64,000 bases of DNA from Methanosarcina flavescens (GTDB taxonomy: Archaea > Halobacteriota > Methanosarcinia > Methanosarcinales > Methanosarcinaceae). Position 1 is the first letter of the stretch. Every line of letters starts with the position of its first letter. The translations under genes were made by a program, and so were the position numbers. Positions 4,453 through 52,863 of the stretch are shown one piece after another. Location: contig NZ_CP032683.1 of the NCBI RefSeq assembly GCF_001304615.2, positions 3,038,001 through 3,102,000 of the forward strand, given 5' to 3'. The notes beneath the pieces are model-generated. The model was not told where the DNA came from, did not search any database, and saw nothing but the letters and a program-made list of their open reading frames with translations.

Positions 4453-6276
4453 TTAGTTTTCATTGTCATCAGTTCCATCAAGCTCTTTCAATTTCTTCTC
4501 GCAAATACTAATTATCCTTGGATCTTCAATTGCTTTTCCAATAGATAGAGATTGCTTCAAAAATTCAATTGCTTTTCTGGGCTCCCCCAGATCACTGTAT
4601 GCTAACCCCAGATTTCCAAGGTGATTTCCTTCTCCTCTCCTGTCTCCTGTTTCTCTGGAAATCTTTAAAGCCTGTTCGTAATACTCAATCGCCTTTCTGG
4701 GCTCTCCCAGATCACTGTATGCTAACCCCAGATTTCCAAGGTGATTTCCTTCCCCTCTCCTGTCTCCTATTTCTCTGGAAATCTTTAAAGCCTGTTCATA
4801 ATATTCAATTGCTTTTCTGGGCTCGCCCAGATTACTGTATGCAGTCCCCAGATTTCCAAGAACAGCTCCATGAGTCTGTTTGTCTTTGAGAACTGGTTTG
4901 TCTTTGAAATGGTCATCAGGAAGTAATTTTTTGTAAATATCAATTAGTGTTCTTGGATTCTCCCAGAGATTCAGAAGAGATGGGAGATTGTATCTCCATA
5001 TGATATCGGCTGCAAAATCATACTCTCCAGCTTCGCAAGCGTGGTAATGGGCCTCGATTACTGGTTGAAGGTCTTCTTTCTTGGTGGGATTTTTTGGTAG
5101 TGGAAGAGAAAGGTAGTATTTTACTGCAAGCATATGTGCTTCTTTTTTGTCTTTGAGATCCCCATAGGAAAATTCCTGAATTAAGGGGTGTAGCCAGTAA
5201 CTTCCATTATGGTCGGTTTCGAGAAGGGACTTATCGACGAGTTTCTTAACAATGTCTATTGAGGTATTTTCTGTAAACATATCTTTGAGACCTTTCATAC
5301 TCACAAGCTCACGATAGACTGAAATGCGCTCAAGAAACTCTTTTTCATCTCCTGCTAATTTATCGAATAATCTTCTCGCCTTTTTGATAGTATCCTCTTT
5401 TTCTTTTTGATACATATTTAAATCGGCAAGTATGTCTTTTGCCCCAAATCTTTTTACAAGCTCCACAAGCAATTTCAAGGCAAGAAGATGACCGTCCACA
5501 CCTGTAGCCAGTTCTTCCAGCTTTTGAGGTTCTACTTCACCAAGCCCATTTCTAGCAAGGTAATCAACTGCAAAATCCGTTCTCAAACCATTGAGATGCT
5601 GTTTTTCTTCATCTTCCACCACATCTATCAGACTTTCCCCGTTTTCGAATATGGGCAGAACTCGACTTGTTATAATGACTTTTGCGTTGTGGGTATTGTG
5701 TCGCAAGGAAAAAAAGAGGAGTTCAATTTCTTTGTCAGTATAATTTTGGTCTGCAAGAATGGTGCTCAAATCATCGAAAATTAGCCAGATTTCGCTCCTT
5801 CTATGAAGTTCGCCGGTGAGTTTGTCAATATCAATTTTTCCGGGTTCTCTTCTCTCCGCTTTAAAAGATACAATTTCAGGAGCATTCATGTAAGCAGCCA
5901 GTTTCTCAAGAATATCACTCAGTTTTGCATCCTGATTATCATGGAAGCTGAACCAGAAAGGCTCAGGGACGTTTACAGGTCTGAGGTCTACAAGAGCTCT
6001 TGCTAGAGTGGACTTGCCGACACCACCAACTCCGCTGATTAGTAAAATTTGGTGACTTTCAAGGTATGTAAGGGCTTTTATTAATTCTTCTGAACGGTTT
6101 TCGCTAACGAACTCCTTCAATCGTCTTGGATACGGCGGTAGTGTTGAAGGATTATAGCGACTCAGGATTTCCTGATTTACCGTTTCTTGTCGCTTTTGGT
6201 CAAGGTACTCGATGATCTTGACAAATTCGTCACCTGAAGGCGTGTTGAAGTTGAAAAAAGTATTGTAGTTTCCCAC
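4453..6276 (-). CDS. STAND/NB-ARC-type NTPase with TPR repeats (NLR-like)
   Basis: 607 residues. Walker A GVGGVGKST at about 82-90, Walker B IWLIFDDL at about 163-170 and the sensor-like IITSR at about 201-205 define a STAND/AP-ATPase core. A winged-helix-like region follows (to about 390), then TPRs from about 466 to 590. Such proteins work as ligand-triggered switches in immunity and cell-death systems; the trigger here is unknown. The start is a GTG with no ribosome-binding site, and no other usable start lies before Walker A. The preceding gene ends with TAG only 18 bases upstream in the same reading frame, so translation is either coupled or reads through the amber codon. Two TPR units are nearly identical at DNA level (120-bp period). 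Confidence 0.85.
   Translation of the reverse strand: MGNYNTFFNFNTPSGDEFVKIIEYLDQKRQETVNQEILSRYNPSTLPPYPRRLKEFVSENRSEELIKALTYLESHQILLISGVGGVGKSTLARALVDLRPVNVPEPFWFSFHDNQDAKLSDILEKLAAYMNAPEIVSFKAERREPGKIDIDKLTGELHRRSEIWLIFDDLSTILADQNYTDKEIELLFFSLRHNTHNAKVIITSRVLPIFENGESLIDVVEDEEKQHLNGLRTDFAVDYLARNGLGEVEPQKLEELATGVDGHLLALKLLVELVKRFGAKDILADLNMYQKEKEDTIKKARRLFDKLAGDEKEFLERISVYRELVSMKGLKDMFTENTSIDIVKKLVDKSLLETDHNGSYWLHPLIQEFSYGDLKDKKEAHMLAVKYYLSLPLPKNPTKKEDLQPVIEAHYHACEAGEYDFAADIIWRYNLPSLLNLWENPRTLIDIYKKLLPDDHFKDKPVLKDKQTHGAVLGNLGTAYSNLGEPRKAIEYYEQALKISREIGDRRGEGNHLGNLGLAYSDLGEPRKAIEYYEQALKISRETGDRRGEGNHLGNLGLAYSDLGEPRKAIEFLKQSLSIGKAIEDPRIISICEKKLKELDGTDDNEN
4569..4860 (-). repeat. 120-bp tandem repeat encoding TPR units
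   Basis: Successive 40-codon units (GNLGLAYSDLGEPRKAIEYY and the following helix ALKISRETGDRRGEG) repeat with very few base changes between the two central copies; a third, upstream copy is slightly more diverged. The near-identity at synonymous sites indicates recent unit duplication or homogenisation, as seen in variable recognition arrays. Confidence 0.75.
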
Positions 6277-6294
6277 CGCGAGTTGATCAACATT

Positions 6295-6636
6295 CTATAT
6301 ATTGAAATTTATGATTAGTCGAATTTCCTTAACAAGGTCTGGATTCTCTCTTAGCAGTTTCAGGATCTCCTGCTTAAGCTCTTCTTTTGCTTTAGGATCA
6401 TCGGGGCTTTCAGAGACTTTTTTAAGCGCTTTTTCAAGGGATTCACCCATTTTAGGACTTATTTTGTCCAGCAAAGTCTTTGCTCTCTTCCAACTTTCGG
6501 AACCGAGTTTTTCAATGCCTTTTTCTAAAAGCATATCTTTGCTTTTATCTACTACAGCTTTGCCTCCCGCATAGATAAATGGCAGGGCTGGAGCGAGAAT
6601 ATTTGTTGCTTGCTGGGCTAAGAAAGCTAGATCCAT
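6295..6636 (-). CDS. small helical partner of the STAND NTPase (possible effector)
   Basis: 113 residues with a strong ribosome-binding site (GGAGGAG, three bases before ATG). The N-terminal third is hydrophobic and alanine-rich (LAFLAQQATNILAPALPFIY), followed by amphipathic charged helices (SWKRAKTLLDKI, SPDDPKAKEELKQEILKLL). The C-terminus is short and beta-prone (EIRLIINFNI). Small proteins of this build are encoded beside NLR-like genes in Methanosarcina and other prokaryotes, where HeLo-like (Bell) membrane-active effectors have been described; membership of that family is inferred, not shown. It ends at TAG, and the frame continues open through six codons straight into the NTPase. The partner begins with a related short stretch (FFNFN versus IINFN). 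Confidence 0.7.
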   Translation of the reverse strand: MDLAFLAQQATNILAPALPFIYAGGKAVVDKSKDMLLEKGIEKLGSESWKRAKTLLDKISPKMGESLEKALKKVSESPDDPKAKEELKQEILKLLRENPDLVKEIRLIINFNI

Positions 6637-13300: not shown

Positions 13301-13729
13301 CTACTTAATAACAATATTCTTATGGACCCACAGCTTACCAACACAACCTTCACACTTAATAGTCATACAACTGATGTAAAAACCAGTCTTTTTATACTTA
13401 TGTACCGGGTTTTTCAATGCTGGGGTTATTTTTGTTCCTTCGAGATGAGTCCCGTCACCAAAGTCCCATCTAATATACGTCACTTTACCTTTTGAGAGGT
13501 CCTTAAACTGCACTACTCGTGGATCACTACTTGAAGCGGCTACTGCTGTATAATCAATACGATTATTCCCACTGGATATACGGGCTGTTGCTGGAGGAGT
13601 CCCTGCGCCTAGGGGAGTGGGGGTTACGATACATTTTGCATAGACTCCTTCAGACAATAGAGTCAACATCAACAGCGTGGTGAGAACAATCGCTGTCATT
13701 CTCCATAAAGACTTTCTATTATTTTTCAT
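13301..13729 (-). CDS. secreted single-PKD-domain protein
   Basis: 142 residues. A signal peptide (RMTAIVLTTLLMLTLLSEGVYA) is followed by a short Thr/Pro linker and one PKD domain (about 55-142) with the hallmark YIRWDFGDGTHLEG and the closing strand pattern NPVHKYKKTGFYIS. PKD domains are Ig-like folds used in archaeal surface layers and secreted enzymes. Four Cys (CMTIKCEGC plus one near the N-terminus) may form disulfides. Clear ribosome-binding site AGGAGG before the ATG. It is a lone domain without an enzyme attached, so a structural or adhesive role is likely (inference). Confidence 0.8.
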   Translation of the reverse strand: MKNNRKSLWRMTAIVLTTLLMLTLLSEGVYAKCIVTPTPLGAGTPPATARISSGNNRIDYTAVAASSSDPRVVQFKDLSKGKVTYIRWDFGDGTHLEGTKITPALKNPVHKYKKTGFYISCMTIKCEGCVGKLWVHKNIVIK

Positions 13730-34218: not shown

Positions 34219-34507
34219 GTAATCACCTATATTTTCGCCTCTATTATAATAATTAAAATAATACTTATTAAACAGAGCATATAAATAGCTTGACCTGCAG
34301 GCTTTTGCTTTCTAACTTTTTGAAAAATATATCCCGAAATTAATATATATTATACTATTAAACTACGGGATATATTTTAACTGCAATCCAAAAAAGGAAC
34401 CAATGTTTAAATTAGCTTTTCAGGCGAACTTTCCTGGAAAATATTGTTTTCCAACCTGCCAGCGGTATGGTTGTTGTTCTAATTTACAGGTTATATGGAG
34501 TATGGTT

Positions 34508-35932
34508 ATGGATAAAGAGGACAGTAAAAAATCAATGTGGGATCATGTAAAATCCATGTGGTCCTCATTGCCAGAAGCTATAAGATTAATTGCTACAATT
34601 CTGAGCATAGCCATTGCTCTTAAGGCGCTTTTCCCCGTAGCTGCGCTAGAAATCAGCGGTTTTAACGCAGACCCAGAAATTATTGAGCCTGGTGGATCTT
34701 CAGTTTTGAGCTGGGAAGTATCAGGAGCGGACAATATCACAATAGAGCCTGGTATAGGTCCTGTAAGTTCGAATGGGTCACTTTCTGTATCTCCTTCCGA
34801 AACTACAGCTTATAAATTGACAGCTACCGATAAGGGAAAGGAAAAAGTGGCTATGTGTACGGTCACGGTTAGTAATGGCTCGGAAGAGCCCTTAATCATT
34901 AGCTCATTTGATTCAAATCCCAATTCCATCAAACAGGGCGAAAGTGCATTCCTGAACTGGCACGTTACCGGGGTTTCAAAAGTTACCATAGAGCCTGATA
35001 TCGGAGTTACTGAACCTACAGGAACACTGAACGTAACCCCGGCCATTACCACTACATACAAGCTTACAGCCTCTAACGGTGATAAAGAAGATGTTGCTTA
35101 CTGTACCATTGCTGTTGAAGGAAACGCTTTATCCTCCGAGAATGTCCCTTCGTCAGAGCTTCCATCTTCAGAGGAAAGCCTGACCCCTCAGAAAGATACA
35201 GCGCCTCAGGAAAATTCGGCATCTGAGGAAAGTCCAGCGCCTGGAGAGAACCCGTCACCAGAGAATCCAGCTCCAGGAGAGAACTCTGTTCCTCAGAAAA
35301 ATGCAGGATCTCAGGAAAATCGGGAATTTCAAGAAAATCTGCCATCCATAGACTCTTTTAATGCGGTTCCAGATGCTATTAGGCAGGGAGAAAATTCAGT
35401 TCTAACATGGAGTGTATCCGGGGCTTCGAAAGTCTCGATATATCCCGAAATAGGAACCGTAGGTCTCACTGGAAGCCAGCGTATCTCCCCTGGTGAAACC
35501 ACGACTTATACCCTGACAGCCACAAATGAGTTAGGGAGTGTGGATGCAACCAGAGTCGTATCTGTACAGGAGGCTTTTGCACCTGCTTCTGAGGAACAGG
35601 TTTCTACGCCCTCTCCTGAGTTCATTTCAAAACCAGAGCAACTTTCGCCTGCTGATGGTACCATATTTGATGATTCCACATCTAGGATTACATTGAAATG
35701 GAGACCTGTTCCAGGTGCGGCAAGTTATACGGTAGAAATCGATGAATATGATCCGGGTTCCGGTTTATGGCTTTCGGAATCAACCGGCTCTAGGATAGAA
35801 TCCGGCATGACAGGAACGAGCTATTCATTTGAGCCTCAGGTTAAGGCACGAGGGCGCTGGCGTGTATGGACTGTCGGTTCTGATGGTCAGGAAAGTGAGA
35901 AGAGCAGCTGGTGGAATTTCAACTACAAATGA
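34508..35932 (+). CDS. membrane-anchored surface protein with Ig-like repeats
   Basis: About 474 residues from ATG 34508 (GGAG seven bases upstream; the frame is open earlier to 34403 without support). A short charged N-terminus precedes one membrane segment (RLIATILSIAIALKALFPVA). Three repeats of about 80 residues follow, with the pattern FNADPEIIEPGGSSVLSWEV...TTAYKLTA (first about 45-125, second 130-210, third 300-370). A Pro/Glu/Ser linker with repeated ENPAPGEN-type words separates repeats two and three. The C-terminal domain (LSPADGTIFDDSTSRITLKW, then RPVPGAASYTVEIDEYD) resembles fibronectin-type modules. Likely an extracellular adhesion or structural protein. Confidence 0.78.
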   Translation: MDKEDSKKSMWDHVKSMWSSLPEAIRLIATILSIAIALKALFPVAALEISGFNADPEIIEPGGSSVLSWEVSGADNITIEPGIGPVSSNGSLSVSPSETTAYKLTATDKGKEKVAMCTVTVSNGSEEPLIISSFDSNPNSIKQGESAFLNWHVTGVSKVTIEPDIGVTEPTGTLNVTPAITTTYKLTASNGDKEDVAYCTIAVEGNALSSENVPSSELPSSEESLTPQKDTAPQENSASEESPAPGENPSPENPAPGENSVPQKNAGSQENREFQENLPSIDSFNAVPDAIRQGENSVLTWSVSGASKVSIYPEIGTVGLTGSQRISPGETTTYTLTATNELGSVDATRVVSVQEAFAPASEEQVSTPSPEFISKPEQLSPADGTIFDDSTSRITLKWRPVPGAASYTVEIDEYDPGSGLWLSESTGSRIESGMTGTSYSFEPQVKARGRWRVWTVGSDGQESEKSSWWNFNYK

Positions 35933-36077: not shown

Positions 36078-37271
36078 ATGATTTGCAGAAAACAACCCTT
36101 AAATTCTCCAGAATGGGACCCCCCTGCCCCTTCAACAGTCTATATCAAAATAAAAAATATTCCATACGAAACATTCAAAACGCGGCTGAATGAGGGGCTG
36201 GTTACCACTGAGCTTGACCAGATCAGGTACCGGCTGGAAAGGCGGATTTACTGCTGTGGGATCTGTTCCAAGCATGTTAACGGATACTGTGTTATTACAA
36301 ACAGGAAAGTTAAGCCCGAATGGATTTGCAAGGCTTTTATGCCGAAAGAGGAATTTATATACCTTGATGCTAGACCTGACTCTGAAGAATCCCCGGATTT
36401 CAGGTATCTCTCGGAAATCAGGCTTTGGAAAAATCACCCTGAAGATGAAATTCCGGGAGAAAACTGCCAGGAACGCGCAGAGAGTCTCTATGAGGAAGGA
36501 GTGGTTCTTTACAGGCAGGGCAGGCTCAGGCTCGCACTTGAGGCTTTCGATACGACTCTTTCCGAAAATCCCAGGCATTTTCCAGCCCTTTTTCATAAAG
36601 GAAATACCCTATTGAAACTCAAACGCTATGAAGAGGCTCTTGAAACATTTGAGAGAGCTTCACTGATAAATCAGAATCATCCGGGTCTCTGGACCAATAA
36701 AGGATTTGTATCCTTGAAGCTCGAACGTTTCAGGCAGGCATTTGAAGCTTTCGAGAAATCTATCTTCCTGAACCCGGTACAGAAAAACGCCTGGAAAGGA
36801 AAAGACGCCGTGCTTGCCCGGATGCGCCAGTGCGAAGAAGAGTTGAGGGAATTTGAAAAAGCTCTGGAAAAGAATCCTGAGGATGCAGGCATCTGGTTCG
36901 AGAAAGGCAAACTGCATTTAAAGCTCGGAGAGCTTGAGAAATCCGGGGAGGCTTTTTAGAAAGCCCTTGAGGAGAAACCCGGGAATGCAGAGGCCTGGCA
37001 TCTCAGGGGAAAAGTATTTTTCGAAACCGGTTCGGAAAAAGCAGCCCTGCACGCATTTGAAAAAGCAACCCGACAAAAACCGGATTTTCCAGATGCCTGG
37101 TATGAAAAAGGAAGGGTTTTTCTTAAGCTTGACAATCCGAAGGGTGCGGAAAACGCTTTTAAGATCGCAGCTGCTCTGTGGGAGAGCAAGGGAGCCAAAG
37201 CAAAGGCTGAAACAGCCCTCGTGAAGGCTAAAAGCCTGGCTTTGGGGAAAGGTGAATTTTCCAGGAATTGA
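36078..37271 (+). CDS. Cys-rich TPR protein with an in-frame UAG codon (possible pyrrolysine)
   Basis: 293 codons run to a TAG at 36957-36959. The same frame then continues for 103 more codons to TGA 37269-37271 without loss of protein character. The N-terminal part (about 35-90) has a Cys cluster (RRIYCCGICSKHVNGYC, KPEWICKAF) suited to metal binding. TPR units follow from about 130. TAG falls in a TPR helix (SGEAF, TAG, KALEEKPGNAEAWHLRGKV) where neighbouring units have Glu (EAFEK), and two further TPRs lie beyond it (ALHAFEKATRQKPDFPDAWY). In Methanosarcina UAG can be read as pyrrolysine, giving a 397-residue protein. Alternatives are a truncated 293-residue product or a nonsense mutation. 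Confidence 0.75.
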
Positions 37272-51811: not shown

Positions 51812-52663
51812 ATGCCTGTACTGAGTATAGTTGCCTGCGGAATGCTCGAAGATGAGCTTGTACATGTATTATCAAAAGATCGAGAGTTAAAGCAGTTAAT
51901 TGTCGTGGAAAACCGGAATAGCTCAGGTTTTCTTCGTAAGCTCAGAGCAAGGAACTGCACTCCAAGGCAGGTTTTCCTTGACCGTGTCCCAATGATCCTT
52001 CAGGGTCAATTCAGCCCTGGTTTTGGAATTTCTGCAAAGCTTTTTTCATGTTTTCCGTTTTTAGAAAAGCTTTGCAGGAAAAGGAAACTCGGGGAAGAAA
52101 TAAGCGTTGTTGTGAATCTGCTAAGCCTGGACCTTCATACTGACCTTGAGGTTTTGAAGACAGAGGTGCACAGGAATATTCGTGAGATGGCTCCTTTCTC
52201 GGATAGGATCCTGGTTTTTTACGGCACCTGTGGGCATGCACTTGGAGAACTGGAAGAAGACCTGGCAGATCTCCAATGTCCTCTTTTTTTCCTCAAAGAC
52301 AAAAATGGGGAAACCGTAGAAGACTGCATCAGTTTGGCACTCGGAGGAAATGAGGCTTATGCCAGAACAATGGCAGAATTCAGGGAAATGGGAACAATTT
52401 ACCTGACTCCTATGTGGGCCTCAAGCTGGAAGCGGCTGGAGAAGGAGACCAGGAACCGGGATTTTAACAAACATTACCTGAAGAATCCACTCTATTGCCT
52501 GGCTGCAAAAATTGACAGTGGGATTTTGAATGATCCGGAATTTGATATAAATGTTAAAGAATTTGCCTGCACTTTTGACATGAGAGTTGTAAATCTCAAA
52601 GGAAATGTAGAGATTACCGAACAGTCTTATCTGAACGCCCGGAATGGTATAGCTGGAAAATAG
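51812..52663 (+). CDS. DUF1638 protein
   Basis: 283 residues, soluble. MPVLSIVACGMLEDELVHVL at the N-terminus, LVFYGTCGHALGELEEDL in the middle and YLTPMWASSWKR are recognised DUF1638 blocks. The conserved Cys and His (CG, YGTCGHAL) suggest metal or corrinoid-linked function. In Methanosarcina such proteins are encoded near methyltransferase genes, but none is here. It ends in TAG directly followed by TAA (52661-52666), so unlike the two amber codons discussed elsewhere, read-through would add one residue at most. No clear ribosome-binding site. Confidence 0.8.
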   Translation: MPVLSIVACGMLEDELVHVLSKDRELKQLIVVENRNSSGFLRKLRARNCTPRQVFLDRVPMILQGQFSPGFGISAKLFSCFPFLEKLCRKRKLGEEISVVVNLLSLDLHTDLEVLKTEVHRNIREMAPFSDRILVFYGTCGHALGELEEDLADLQCPLFFLKDKNGETVEDCISLALGGNEAYARTMAEFREMGTIYLTPMWASSWKRLEKETRNRDFNKHYLKNPLYCLAAKIDSGILNDPEFDINVKEFACTFDMRVVNLKGNVEITEQSYLNARNGIAGK

Positions 52664-52863
52664 TAACGAAGCTGATTTATATTGAAAACCTGTTTAAATT
52701 CAAATTAGCTCTTTTGAAGGAGTAGCAGGGTAAAAATAAGAGGAACAGGCTTTAATTGGTCTCAAGTTGCCTGAAGTGACTGCTAAAATTTATATACTTA
52801 TTCATCTTTTTAATATACTAATATATTACTTTCGAACTCTTTCTAGTATCTAGACTCTTTGGG

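Follow-up and report, generated by a model that had tools for sequence, protein, structure and literature searches.

Organization of the locus

The window analyzed here is a 64,000-nucleotide stretch of DNA, spanning positions 3038001-3102000 of a single closed contig of 3,283,688 bases (3.28 Mb) from a Methanosarcina genome, referred to below as the host. Within it lies a TPR gene of 397 codons that carries a single in-frame TAG, with neither a frameshift nor a second stop. Translation of 36078-37271 (+) yields 293 codons, the TAG, 103 sense codons, and a closing TGA:

36078..36956, + strand: codons 1-293; Cys-containing N-terminal domain (about residues 1-130, no Pfam match), then TPR repeats
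36957..36959, + strand: in-frame TAG, codon 294, in the second helix of one TPR (residues 286-299); GAG in the nearest relative
36960..37268, + strand: codons 295-397, the rest of the TPR helices; codons 295-381 lack an in-frame start
37269..37271, + strand: TGA closing the read-through frame, at 397 aa as in the protein of the nearest relative

Matches to PF00515 and PF07719, well above the curated Pfam cut-off, identify the product as a TPR protein, and in the profile search its repeats extend beyond the TAG. Where the interrupted repeat reads AF-TAG-K, its sister repeats have AFEK. The first-pass annotation had described a TPR frame that runs beyond the TAG to a TGA without a frameshift or second stop, with Glu at the equivalent position of sister repeats; translation, profile matches, and the repeat comparison bear out both points. 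The 103-codon extension shares 96% amino acid identity with the nearest orthologue over its entire length and is not a product of chance. Codons 295-381 contain no in-frame ATG, GTG, or TTG, and the 3′ part could therefore be made only by readthrough.

The predicted structure consists of paired helices with a mean pLDDT of 73.6 and values over 90 for most positions from 150 to 370. Residue 294 falls within the helix that spans residues 286-299 and is the second of its TPR, and a stop at this codon would, in the model, cost part of that helix and every later one. Only the TPR part is recognized by profiles: the N-terminal 130 residues match no Pfam or NCBIfam model but contain conserved cysteines at positions 59, 60, 63, 71, and 84. 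The gene product probably acts as a TPR adaptor and carries a metal-binding head.

Neighboring genes encode PKD/polysaccharide deacetylase-like, phosphatase-like, and CAAX-protease-like proteins, and the upstream neighbor (34403-35932) stays adjacent to the TPR gene in several relatives. No link to methylamine genes was found in this neighborhood. A search of viral contigs for the amber site gave no match.

Pyrrolysine machinery of the host

The host genome encodes pylS and one tRNA-Pyl gene, the latter identified about 0.8 kb upstream of the pylS match by 20 bases identical to the tRNA-Pyl anticodon region. It also carries three methylamine methyltransferase genes with one TAG each (two mtbB and one mtmB) and a single aRF1 above the family cut-off. 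UAG is therefore readable in this organism either as pyrrolysine or by the sole release factor. The nearest relative, G103 (3,127,379 bases; about 93.4% identity in aligned DNA), likewise has pylS.

A downstream RNA structure, PYLIS, has been reported for mtmB, although incorporation does not require it. The 114 nucleotides from the TAG of the TPR gene fold with ordinary energy (z = -0.65), and by this energy measure no unusual downstream structure is present.

Codon 294 among orthologues

Close orthologues of the TPR gene from named genomes belong to Methanosarcina, which gives the genus of the host, and the orthologue is retained in nearly all of that genus. The homologue set comprised matches at E below 1e-40 in 33 other genomes of the family, mostly full-length orthologues, and none of these terminates at the TAG position. 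An alignment of homologues at this codon had been proposed at first pass, and in it none of the 29 sequences with codon 294 aligned ends there. None of those 29 genomes has TAG at the codon either. It is GAA in 18, AAA in eight, and GAG, AGA, and GGA in one each, the GAG belonging to the nearest relative; one further orthologue fragment has Gln. Since codon 294 is a sense codon elsewhere and GAG in the nearest relative, the amber arose by one G-to-T step, GAG to TAG, private to the host lineage. Position 294 is a variable TPR position at which E, K, R, G, and Q are tolerated and charge is unconserved.

An orthologue from another genus, in a genome that has pylS (G009), gained an amber independently, by a CAG-to-TAG change at codon 286. 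Its frame is intact, and dN/dS after the amber is 0.10-0.17. In L027, a sequence from a metagenome assembly, the frame is disrupted toward the C-terminus ahead of the stops, which were left out.

These observations bear on the idea that the amber is a selected pyrrolysine switch, in which the balance between truncated and full-length protein would signal how much pyrrolysine is available (methylamine growth), or in which pyrrolysine acts in the TPR surface. The frame kept after the TAG, and an amber at a distance of eight codons in a second genus's copy of the gene, would both suit such a role. Against it stand the absence of TAG at codon 294 from every other genome, the different codon used in the second genus, the lack of special RNA structure downstream, and neighboring genes without a methylamine link. 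A switch is accordingly a very unlikely explanation. More generally, a conserved, functional pyrrolysine is disfavored by the sequence comparison, in which no relative shares the site and no methylamine-gene link lies nearby.

Selection after the amber

Relative to the nearest orthologue (L004), the region after the TAG has dN 0.021, dS 0.181, and dN/dS 0.117, an average over the whole split, while the region before the TAG has dN 0.032, dS 0.176, and dN/dS 0.180. The median dN/dS in a comparison set of 508 uninterrupted genes is 0.167. The selection test that had been suggested for the downstream part thus shows non-neutral evolution since the split from the nearest relative. This outcome and that of the homologue alignment both favor readthrough.

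Changes on the host branch, polarized with outgroups, point the same way. Five nonsynonymous and six synonymous changes fall after the TAG (p = 0.034 against a 3:1 neutral ratio), and codons 295-380 alone hold one nonsynonymous and six synonymous changes (p = 0.001 against the same ratio), the variable tail from codon 381 having been excluded post hoc with the data already seen. Many branch assignments depend on one outgroup. A branch model with a variable neutral fraction disfavors neutral time beyond about 30% of the branch. Old decay is thereby ruled out, and a nonsense mutation young enough to fall within roughly the final 30% of the branch would be compatible with these substitutions.

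The first-pass annotation had called the arrangement unlike ordinary decay. This holds for long decay, which the dN/dS bound opposes, but a fresh nonsense mutation looks identical, with one stop and the frame otherwise whole. A recent nonsense mutation would mean that the gene in effect now ends at codon 293, that decay is beginning, and that any readthrough is irrelevant. The TAG is found in one genome only and lies one step from GAG, as such a mutation would, and as much as about 30% of the branch could have passed neutrally with no trace to be seen. Maintenance of the orthologue in nearly all of the genus speaks against loss, as does the behavior of UAG in Methanosarcina, where it is not a clean stop: the foreign reporter uidA, given an amber codon and expressed in M. 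acetivorans, yielded 20-30% full-length product that contained pyrrolysine (PMC2933860). Recent nonsense is thus a possible but rather unlikely account of the locus, and the distribution of internal stops in other host genes bears on it further.

Other interrupted genes in the host

About 1.2 Mb of the host (about 37% of the genome) was scanned against 1.14 Mb of G103, covering 615 orthologues. Among these, a single internal stop in a real host gene was a TAG in six cases, a TAA in two, and a TGA in none. The amber-interrupted genes are the TPR gene and the following five:

4453..6636, - strand: STAND/NACHT-type ATPase with C-terminal TPRs; TAG 6297-6295, 613 open codons, TAA
host genome 363695: NikR, single amber, rest intact
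host genome 2820845: catalase-like gene (catalase family), single amber, rest intact
host genome 355450: sodium:alanine symporter, single amber, rest intact
host genome 3218842 (L069, from about L069:18842): HD/Ppx-like gene (HD/Ppx-GppA-like), single amber, rest intact

The STAND ATPase amber is a GAG-to-TAG change; G103 lacks this amber, although its copy is shortened at the C-terminus by a TAA. The mid-gene ambers of the symporter, catalase, and NikR genes occur in the host only, among the matches listed genus-wide, and the single stops seen in these genes in other genomes are probably terminal stops for the most part. Of the two host TAA genes, one encodes a protein that resembles a PAS-type sensor kinase by sequence, and the product of the other is 198 aa long and matches no Pfam family.

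Two genes with a single TAA in an intact frame favor recent nonsense at the TPR locus as well, since they imply that fresh nonsense changes beyond pyrrolysine rescue do occur in this genome. The preponderance of six TAG over two TAA and no TGA counts against it. Mutation opportunity and spectrum predict a TAG share of 42%, and six of eight gives p = 0.06; the excess is suggestive and falls short of significance.

In the same sample, G103 yielded no convincing amber-interrupted gene and one TAA, at the C-terminus of the STAND gene. The sampled stretches thus hold six amber genes in the host versus none in G103, despite the presence of pylS and one aRF1 in each. A release-factor difference was considered as an explanation and rejected, as one aRF1 exceeds the cut-off in each genome. 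Four of the 12 initial interrupted frames (G103 379542, 1254269, 320904, and 1166372) were dropped on inspection as shadow frames or misplaced starts, and reverse-direction amber hits also appear to be shadow frames.

Two genes in the window end in apparently genuine amber stops. A PKD protein (13301-13303) has a TAA one codon later, and the DUF1638 protein (stops at 52661-52666) has a TAA at once. The latter gene (51812-52663; PF07796) had been cited at first pass as the window's only other amber and as an example of a protected stop; it does end in TAG-TAA, but the unprotected TAG of the STAND ATPase is a further amber in the window.

An error in the assembly, with TTTTG read as TTTTT, would also create the codon, and the changed base directly follows a T run. 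The genome is nonetheless a single closed contig, and the other five host ambers lie away from long homopolymers, which makes a base-calling error the most improbable of the explanations considered.

Comparison with known amber-containing genes

MtmB, MtbB, and MttB share with the TPR gene a single in-frame UAG and an intact downstream frame, and MtmB and MtbB also occur in the host. Unlike the TPR gene, whose amber is private and at a variable position, they have an amber that is conserved across species, and a catalytic role is ascribed to their pyrrolysine (PMC2933860). A closer parallel is Thg1, the tRNA-His guanylyltransferase of M. acetivorans, which is reported to have a species-specific in-frame UAG and a dispensable pyrrolysine (PMC2933860). 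Thg1 resembles the TPR gene in lying outside methylamine metabolism, in having an in-frame amber absent from relatives, and in keeping its full frame intact. It differs in that its pyrrolysine was physically detected, whereas the TPR case is known from DNA sequence. The Thg1 amber has been interpreted as neutral (PMC2933860, PMC3639795).

Amber-readthrough genes have been predicted in Methanosarcina before, through read-through similarity and iORF surveys, and some were ascribed to drift (PMC1242214, PMC3639795). Like the TPR gene, they show homology running through an in-frame UAG; unlike it, they come from other genomes, and the main texts of these surveys mention no TPR protein (PMC1242214, PMC3639795).

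Origin and consequences of the amber

The best explanation, with a probability of roughly 0.6, is that the amber was gained near-neutrally in a lineage where UAG means both stop and pyrrolysine, and that pyrrolysine is tolerated at codon 294 without a special task. A one-base G-to-T change in the host lineage would have turned the glutamate codon GAG into UAG. Because charged tRNA-Pyl would be present in the cell and UAG serves as more than a stop, ribosomes at codon 294 would have two outcomes: termination, giving a 293-aa product that ends within a TPR helix, or insertion of pyrrolysine, giving the complete 397-aa TPR protein. Because position 294 is a variable helix position, pyrrolysine would be tolerated there and the change would be nearly neutral. 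Most likely, some full-length protein carries pyrrolysine at codon 294, by chance and not by need. The sequence data show a single-step origin, an intact and constrained downstream frame, and pyl machinery in the genome, while incorporation, its efficiency, and near-neutrality are inferred. The type of event is one already described, a chance amber gain in a pyrrolysine-using methanogen.

The first-pass reading of a pyrrolysine-containing protein outside methylamine metabolism is therefore upheld in part: pylS, pylT, and the constrained intact frame agree with it, but a selected pyrrolysine is unsupported and the amber is confined to the host lineage. A counterpoint to near-neutral gain is that G103 has pylS yet no amber-interrupted gene in the sample, where general tolerance of UAG predicts otherwise. 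The TAG may also be so recent that selection has had no time to act on it.

A broader and decidedly doubtful proposal is that the host lineage is drifting toward UAG as a general sense codon, with pyrrolysine found proteome-wide outside methylamine metabolism. If so, single ambers would have arisen in many unrelated genes since the split, six in 1.2 Mb and perhaps fifteen genome-wide. Automatic annotation probably labels such genes as truncated or as pseudogenes. The TPR gene and its five companions are concrete candidates for pyrrolysine acquired by drift and not by need, and a set of ambers with intact-frame relatives would let the freedom of UAG translation and proteome-wide code ambiguity be measured in Methanosarcina.
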